Source: Aminivibrio sp.
GTDB lineage: Bacteria; Synergistota; Synergistia; Synergistales; Aminobacteriaceae
Length of the DNA: 64,000 nt
Reading direction: 5' to 3'
Assembly (NCBI RefSeq): GCF_016756745.1
Contig: NZ_JAESIH010000037.1
Location: 1-64,000, forward strand
The translations under genes were made by a program, and so were the position numbers. Shown in pieces: positions 5,835 through 55,902 of the stretch. The notes under the pieces are model-generated. The model saw only the letters and a program-made list of their open reading frames with translations, was not told the DNA's origin and did not search any database. The first letter of the stretch is position 1; each line of letters starts with the position of its first letter.

Positions 5835-6048
5835 GCTGAACCCGCTAATTTTTCCAGACAGAGGGAGTGTCGCCGGGCATAAGGTGAATTCGCCCTCCCC
5901 GGAAGCGAGGAGATACCCCCCTGGGGGACAAGCCCCGGCGAACGCAGGGATGCGCGGTGATCGTTTGTGCAGTTGCCGAGGACGGCAATTTGCACCCCCC
6001 GGCCCAAGGGAACACCAGTGACGCTCCCCGCTGGGGTGCGGATTTAGG
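5835..6048 (+). repeat. Intergenic structured repeat element, copy 1
   Basis: This 214-bp block in the 339-bp gap between rlmD and tRNA-Gly shares modules with 43681-43906, 48868-49034 and 55591-55902. Shared pieces include CAGAGGGAGTGTCGCCGGGC at the left, a GGCGAACGCAGGGAT module, a GCAGTTGCC/GGCAATTTGC hairpin, and CCCGGCCCAAG leading to GCTGGGGTGCGGATTTAGG at the right. The open frames that cross it are spurious. No transposase or coding potential is seen inside. Confidence 0.8.
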
Positions 6049-16017: not shown

Positions 16018-16344
16018 GGGAGTATTCTAGGTGACCGCTCCTTTTGGGAGAGGAAAGTCCGGGCTCCATAGGGCAGGATGCTGGGTAACCCCCAGTTGGT
16101 GCAAACCAAAGGAAAGTGCCACAGAAACAAACCGCCCCCTGAGGGTAAGGGTGAAAAGGTGGAGTAAGAGCCCACCGGGTGAAAAGCGATTTTCACGCCA
16201 GGCAAACCCCGTCCGGAGCAAGACTGAATAGGGGGGGAAGACGCTGCCCGCCGACCCCCGGGTACGGTCGCGTAAAGACCGTCGCGAGGCGGTCTTCAGA
16301 TAAATGGTCACCATGAGACAGAACCCGGCTTATTGAATGCTCCC
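16018..16344 (+). ncRNA. rnpB: RNase P RNA, bacterial class A
   Basis: The 327-nt RNA is the catalytic component of RNase P, which matures tRNA 5' ends. Universally conserved pieces are present in order: GAGGAAAGTCCGGGCTCC, the GGTGCAAACC...AAAGTGCCACAGAAA region, AGAGCCCACCG, CCCGTCCGGAGCAAGA, and the 3' segment GATAAATGGTCACC followed by ACAGAACCCGGCTTA. The ends are set by the P1 helix: GGGAGTATTC (16018-16027) pairs with GAATGCTCCC (16335-16344), with one G-U pair. It lies between cheR and the dcw cluster. Confidence 0.96.
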
Positions 16345-16357
16345 ATTTTCCCGAATT

Positions 16358-43680: not shown

Positions 43681-43906
43681 AATCCGGCGGCCCGGCAATC
43701 CGCACCCCAGCGGAAATGTCGCCGGGGACGGGACCGCTTGGGCCGGGGGTGCAGATTGCCGGGGAGTGACAACGGCTCAAACGAGTCCCGCGGATCCCTG
43801 CGTTCGCCCGTGTCGGTTTCTCCTCCCCTCAGGGGATAATCTCTTCACCCCTGCTGGGGAGGGCGCCTTCACCTTATGCGCCCGGCAATCCCCTCCCTAG
43901 GGGTGA
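43681..43906 (-). repeat. Intergenic structured repeat element, copy 2 (inverted)
   Basis: Read on the minus strand, this 226-bp block carries the same module order as copy 1: GCCGGGCGCATAAGGTGAAG, GCGCCCTCCCCAG, GGCGAACGCAGGGAT, CCGGCAATCTGCACCCCC, CGGCCCAAGCGG, and GCTGGGGTGCGGATT. It fills the 351-bp gap between convergent tpiA and rsfS; the remaining 85 bp (43596-43680) are AT-rich with no gene. Neighbouring hairpins could terminate both transcripts. Confidence 0.8.
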
Positions 43907-48867: not shown

Positions 48868-49034
48868 CCTAAATCCGCACCTCAGCGGGGAGTGTCACCA
48901 GTGCTCGCTTGGGCGGGGGGTGCAGATTGTCGTCCTTGACAACTGCACCTGAAACCGACATCCGTGTCGGTTTCTCTCCCCCGGGCGCTGTGCCCGGCGA
49001 CACTCCCTCTGCCTGGGAAACTTGCGGATTGAGG
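48868..49034 (-). repeat. Intergenic structured repeat element, copy 3 (compact)
   Basis: This 167-bp copy lies between recN and the rplU promoter. It starts CCTAAATCCGCA and ends TGCGGATTGAGG, giving matching inverted termini, and contains GCAGATTGTC/GACAACTGC, GAAACCGACA/TGTCGGTTTC and CCGGGC/GCCCGG hairpins. It lacks the ATAAGGTGAAG and CGAACGCAGGGAT modules present in the longer copies. Its second half is nearly identical to the right half of copy 4. Confidence 0.85.
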
Positions 49035-55590: not shown

Positions 55591-55902
55591 CCTAAATCAG
55601 CAAATTTTTAAGGCAGAGGGAGTGTCGCCGGGCATAAGGTGAAGGCGCCCTCCCCAGGGGCGAAGAGATCCCACTCGGCGTTTTTTGCGGATGAATCCCC
55701 TGGGGGAGGTGAGGGGAGAGACTCCGGCACGGATGTCCGTTTCACAGGCAGGCAACAGGCGAACGCAGGAAGCCGCGGGGACTCGCATGGGCAGTTGTCA
55801 CGGACGACAATCTGCACCTGAAACCGACATCCGTGTCGGTTTCTCGGCCCGGGCGCTGTGCCCGGCGACATTCCCTCTGCCTGAAAATCCTGCGGATTGA
55901 GG
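55591..55902 (+). repeat. Intergenic structured repeat element, copy 4 (longest, with terminal inverted repeats)
   Basis: This 312-bp copy has near-perfect terminal inverted repeats: AGGCAGAGGGAGTGTCGCCG on the left and its complement with one mismatch on the right (about 24 bp), plus weaker outer complementarity between CCTAAATCAGCA and TGCGGATTGAGG. It contains the ATAAGGTGAAG, GCGAACGCAGG, GCAGTTGTC/GACAATCTGC and GAAACCGACA/TGTCGGTTTC modules of the family. No open frame inside it looks coding. Confidence 0.85.

Follow-up and report, generated by a model that had tools for sequence, protein, structure and literature searches.

The stretch of Aminivibrio sp. DNA analysed here (64,000 nucleotides, hereafter the window) contains a 312-bp repeat (copy 4, positions 55591 to 55902, plus strand) whose two ends carry the same sequence in opposite orientation, raising the question of whether it is a non-autonomous mobile element, a large REP/BIME-type palindromic unit, or something else. 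We consider it about 95% probable that the repeat belongs to a MITE family sharing its ends with an IS1380-type insertion sequence (IS) of the same genome, and that copy 4 is a fusion, made of the left part of a full-type element and the reverse-complemented left half of a short-type one.

A dispersed and mobile repeat family

Copy 4 is, as a sequence-only reading had proposed, the longest of the four copies in the window. Copy 1 (about 5837 to 6048, plus strand), a shortened full-type element with a degenerate left tip and AAAAA on both sides, lies upstream of tRNA-Gly; copy 2 (43690 to 43905, ends approximate, minus strand) is a degenerate full-type element without intact tips; and copy 3 (48868 to 49034, minus strand) is a short-type element with both tips, identical to the short unit at 157 of 167 positions. 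Alignment of the window with congener G002 gave five collinear blocks separated by four breaks, all of which are the repeat copies, and in congener G001 the intergenic spot of copy 3 holds an IS1380-type right end. Positions 16019 to 16347 of the window encode a bacterial RNase P RNA of class A (Rfam RF00010).

Searching the host genome (2.94 Mb in 100 contigs) with copy 4 revealed many dispersed copies, in at least 41 places at E <= 2.1e-35; 40 of 187 candidates were scored, so that the true number of places exceeds 41. In this genome, the degenerate tip CCTNAATCMGC is found 343 times against 16 for its reversed control, which, assuming two tips per element, corresponds to roughly 160 elements or more, a total derived from tip counts rather than from full annotation. 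Bounded by the terminal inverted repeats CCTAAATCCGC...GCGGATTTAGG, the units span 50–290 bp, with no transposase gene and no gene found in the interior. The commonest full unit among the loci examined is ~282 bp long, and length classes of about 50, 165, 210, 256 and 282 bp have modules in common, the shorter ones missing whole hairpin segments. The interior is a set of nested hairpins, and loss of hairpin modules gave rise to the length classes. The 256-bp elements, missing from the BLAST list, were considered as a separate family and rejected as such, being shortened full-type units. In one MITE of G001 (L057, G001:C1:179372-179817), an internal unit of ~48 bp is repeated in tandem about five times, making a minisatellite inside a MITE.

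The burst of these elements is lineage-specific. The perfect 12-mer CCTAAATCCGCA occurs 233 times in this genome compared with 43, 9, 6 and 1 times in congeners G001, G002, G003 and G004, respectively, and 0–3 times in each of 56 further relatives; its reversed control was absent from the first four genomes. A pattern scan of public genomes, from which records of the organism's own genome were possibly left out, gave the MAG Synergistaceae bacterium LM3-B4.3 as its sole match.

Copies of the family are flanked by target-site duplications of 5 bp, far above shuffled pairing. Exact 5-bp duplications were found at 9 of 32 units in the window's genome (0.3 expected from shuffled flanks) and at 13 of 15 units in G001 and G002 (1.05 expected), with 4- and 6-bp flanking repeats near background. 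Only about one third of the own-genome copies examined have an exact duplication, the remainder having lost it or being degraded themselves. Orthologous empty sites were sought by joining the flanks minus the element and one duplication and matching the product to congeners. For three loci (L055, CCCTG; L033, TGGAA; L028, TCAGG), G001 is contiguous across the junction with a single copy of the duplicated target, and a fourth (L043) is empty in three genomes with a target differing by one base. By every defining feature tested, the family is a MITE family, and it has probably been active; the proposal of a non-autonomous mobile element is thus borne out by dispersed copies, duplications, empty sites and the IS1380 partner described below.

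Two loci show further variation between genomes. Different-length MITEs occupy an identical position and orientation in the window's genome (L165:2061-2316, G000:C33) and in G001 (L048, G001:C1:205572), where G002 is empty, representing either a shared old insertion or a hotspot. The flanks of the MITE at L143 (G000:C9) are 100% identical to G002:C2:40389-40929, and on contig G000:C86 this locus is found in an empty-site version that is 90% identical; the identity to G002 reflects either assembly contamination or very recent transfer.

An IS1380-type partner with matching tips

A transposase with matching termini, suggested as a check by the sequence-only reading, is present in the same genome on another contig than the window. 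The complete partner IS (L109:872-2783, equivalent to G000:C76:3871-5782) is 1,912 bp long, is flanked on both sides by CGGTC, a 5-bp duplication, and has an open frame of 549 codons. Its product matches the IS1380-family model NF033539 (E = 2.3e-49) with 168 bits, below the NCBI cut-off of 180, and exceeds the cut-off for the Pfam domain DDE_Tnp_1_4; a relative with the same tips in G004 reaches 186.9 bits and passes the 180 cut-off, and an IS1380-type element with the same tips also occurs in another genus (G021). Contigs C6, C7, C11 and C72 start 124–247 bp inside the common right end ...ACCTGCGGATTTAGG, the pattern that a multi-copy IS would produce by interrupting the assembly.

The short MITE has 16 bp in common with the right end of the partner and 15 bp with its left end. 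Only these tips match significantly, the MITE interior showing no relation to the IS; comparison of the two did not reveal derivation of the interior by internal deletion of the IS, a route that is not required of every MITE. Based on the tips and on the duplication length, which is also 5 bp in IS1247 of the IS1380 family (PMC3281130), the MITEs are probably transposed in trans by the IS1380-type transposase. The enzyme would recognize the 11–16-bp tips, the MITE left tip resembling the IS right end CCTAAATCCGCAGGTT and the MITE right tip the IS left end CCTAAATCCGCACC, and would make staggered cuts 5 bp apart in the target, thereby leaving a 5-bp direct duplication.

At two loci (L109:872-2800, G000:C76; L060:1501-1670, G001:C16), MITE and IS1380 ends abut with only the 5-bp target between them (CGGTC and GGAAC, respectively), which suggests insertion next to an existing element. 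An IS1634-type transposase beside an IS end on C98 was also considered as the partner and rejected since, by reading, it appears to sit inside an IS1380 remnant; this IS1634-family element (L110, G000:C98) was apparently inserted there.

Folding of the interior and the composite structure of copy 4

The inverted ends described for copy 4 are real. Of the 44 bases in its left arm (55591 to 55634, plus strand), 37 are complementary to the right arm (55859 to 55902, minus strand), whereas dinucleotide shuffles of the copy (n = 500) averaged 12.3 matches and never exceeded 20; the inner block AGGCAGAGGGA...GGGCA is matched at 23 of 24 positions, exactly as had been noted. The tips CCTAAATCAGC and GCGGATTGAGG were likewise correctly placed at the two ends: the left tip (55591 to 55601, plus strand) is CCTAAATCAGC, for which the family consensus is CCTAAATCCGC, and the right tip (55892 to 55902) reads CCTCAATCCGC on the minus strand. 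The interior hairpins that had been proposed are present, given an RNA fold of -176 kcal/mol (z = -12), which is stronger than that of the canonical unit (z = -6.3) because of the long arms. A promoter and terminator scan around copy 4 returned no sites, and no ORF of at least 100 aa lies inside it.

Such folding might indicate that, in addition to the mobility of the family, its hairpin interior has been kept by selection as structured RNA or DNA (for example, as a transcript stabilizer or terminator) rather than carried only as ballast, which we regard as unlikely. Besides the fold of the canonical unit, 90.3% of cells are paired compared with 37%–48% when slid, and 25 double-sided changes, mainly in one stem, were counted against 15.9 in shuffles. 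However, RNAalifold found compensatory change at just 1 of the 51 pairs, its covariation term was slightly unfavourable, common subtypes lose whole hairpins, Rfam has no match at the repeats, and template-switch repair of near-palindromes could yield the same pattern. Covariation in the MITE interior is weak, and we do not claim a conserved RNA. It is likewise unlikely that this high-copy family, probably moved by an IS1380-type transposase and diversifying by hairpin-module loss and fusion, has an interior under selection, whether because it makes transposition more efficient or because it is transcribed into a structured RNA.

Judged from its sequence, copy 4 departs from the standard elements and consists of two elements fused head to head. 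Its bases 1–228 (55591 to 55818, plus strand) are full-type, with 200 of 234 aligned columns identical to bases 1–231 of the canonical 282-bp unit, and its bases 216–312 (55806 to 55902, minus strand) correspond, in reverse complement, to the short unit's left half, with 91 of 98 identical to bases 1–97 of the 166-bp reference (the reverse complement of L066:275-440). The components overlap at the fusion junction (55806 to 55818, no strand assigned) in a 13-bp segment, GACAATCTGCACC, which belongs to both and sits in a hairpin common to full and short types. This fused make-up explains the length of copy 4, its long arms and the absence of a target-site duplication at its flanks; the long arms are not the normal ends of the family, which consist of an 11–16-bp tip plus a looser stem. 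In the congeners compared, the site is occupied by 87–92 bp of other DNA, and because this spacer DNA is divergent, the locus lacks a clean empty site with a single target copy.

In the simplest history of copy 4, two elements would have inserted head to head, and a deletion spanning their common segment would, probably later, have joined them. A full-type element on the plus strand and a short-type element on the minus strand would have sat head to head between the divergent flanking genes, which from reading their sequences we take to be xseB-like (minus strand) and rpmB-like (plus strand), and would have fused across the shared 13-bp hairpin segment with loss of their right halves and the intervening DNA. 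It is very unlikely that copy 4 is instead a genuine long element type with naturally long arms that transposed as such: although it has intact tips and long, well-matched arms, its parts match two different subtypes with a 13-bp overlap, it has no target-site duplication, and the loci examined include no second 312-bp unit built in this way. Moreover, a second composite, joined differently, lies at L145 (G000:C47:20190-20560), where a short type is joined to a full type in the same orientation, so fusions do happen.

Relation to known elements and significance

A REP/BIME-type palindromic repeat spread by RAYT (REP-associated tyrosine transposase), the other possibility raised by the sequence-only reading, can be set aside as highly improbable: REP/BIME repeats are likewise dispersed, intergenic, palindromic and high in copy number, but REPs measure 20–40 bp (PMC3733652) compared with ~282 bp for the present unit, and the consistent 5-bp duplications, the empty sites and the IS1380-like tips speak strongly against it.

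The family is likely new, and is a MITE family of an already known kind. It resembles IS1380-family insertion sequences (IS1247, ISEcp1, ISPme1) in that its partner has an IS1380-family transposase, short inverted ends and, as in IS1247, a 5-bp duplication, but the MITEs themselves lack a transposase gene and have only 11–16 bp per end in common with the IS. The Chunjie MITE of Geobacter uraniireducens (178–235 bp, tens of copies, mostly intergenic; PMC10969869, a review), set side by side by description only, is comparable in size, intergenic bias, variable length, terminal inverted repeats and duplications, whereas the present family, with about 160 or more elements estimated from tip counts, is more numerous. 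MITEPye1 of Paracoccus yeei has IS-like terminal inverted repeats, direct repeats and a stem-loop interior as well, and is also thought to be mobilized by an IS in trans; in contrast to the IS1380 tips here, it is linked to IS1182 and is found in 1–3 copies per chromosome (PMC11578231).

As the burst is lineage-specific, the family can serve as an example of how MITEs have recently amplified in Synergistaceae, and copy 4 illustrates that what looks like the "best copy" of a repeat may turn out to be a fusion. No MITE linked to IS1380 was found in the literature searched (ISfinder and most subscription papers lay outside the search), and the family therefore provides a natural system for the end requirements of IS1380 transposases. 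Since the IS1380 family includes ISEcp1, these MITEs allow us to ask what an IS1380 transposase needs at the ends it moves.
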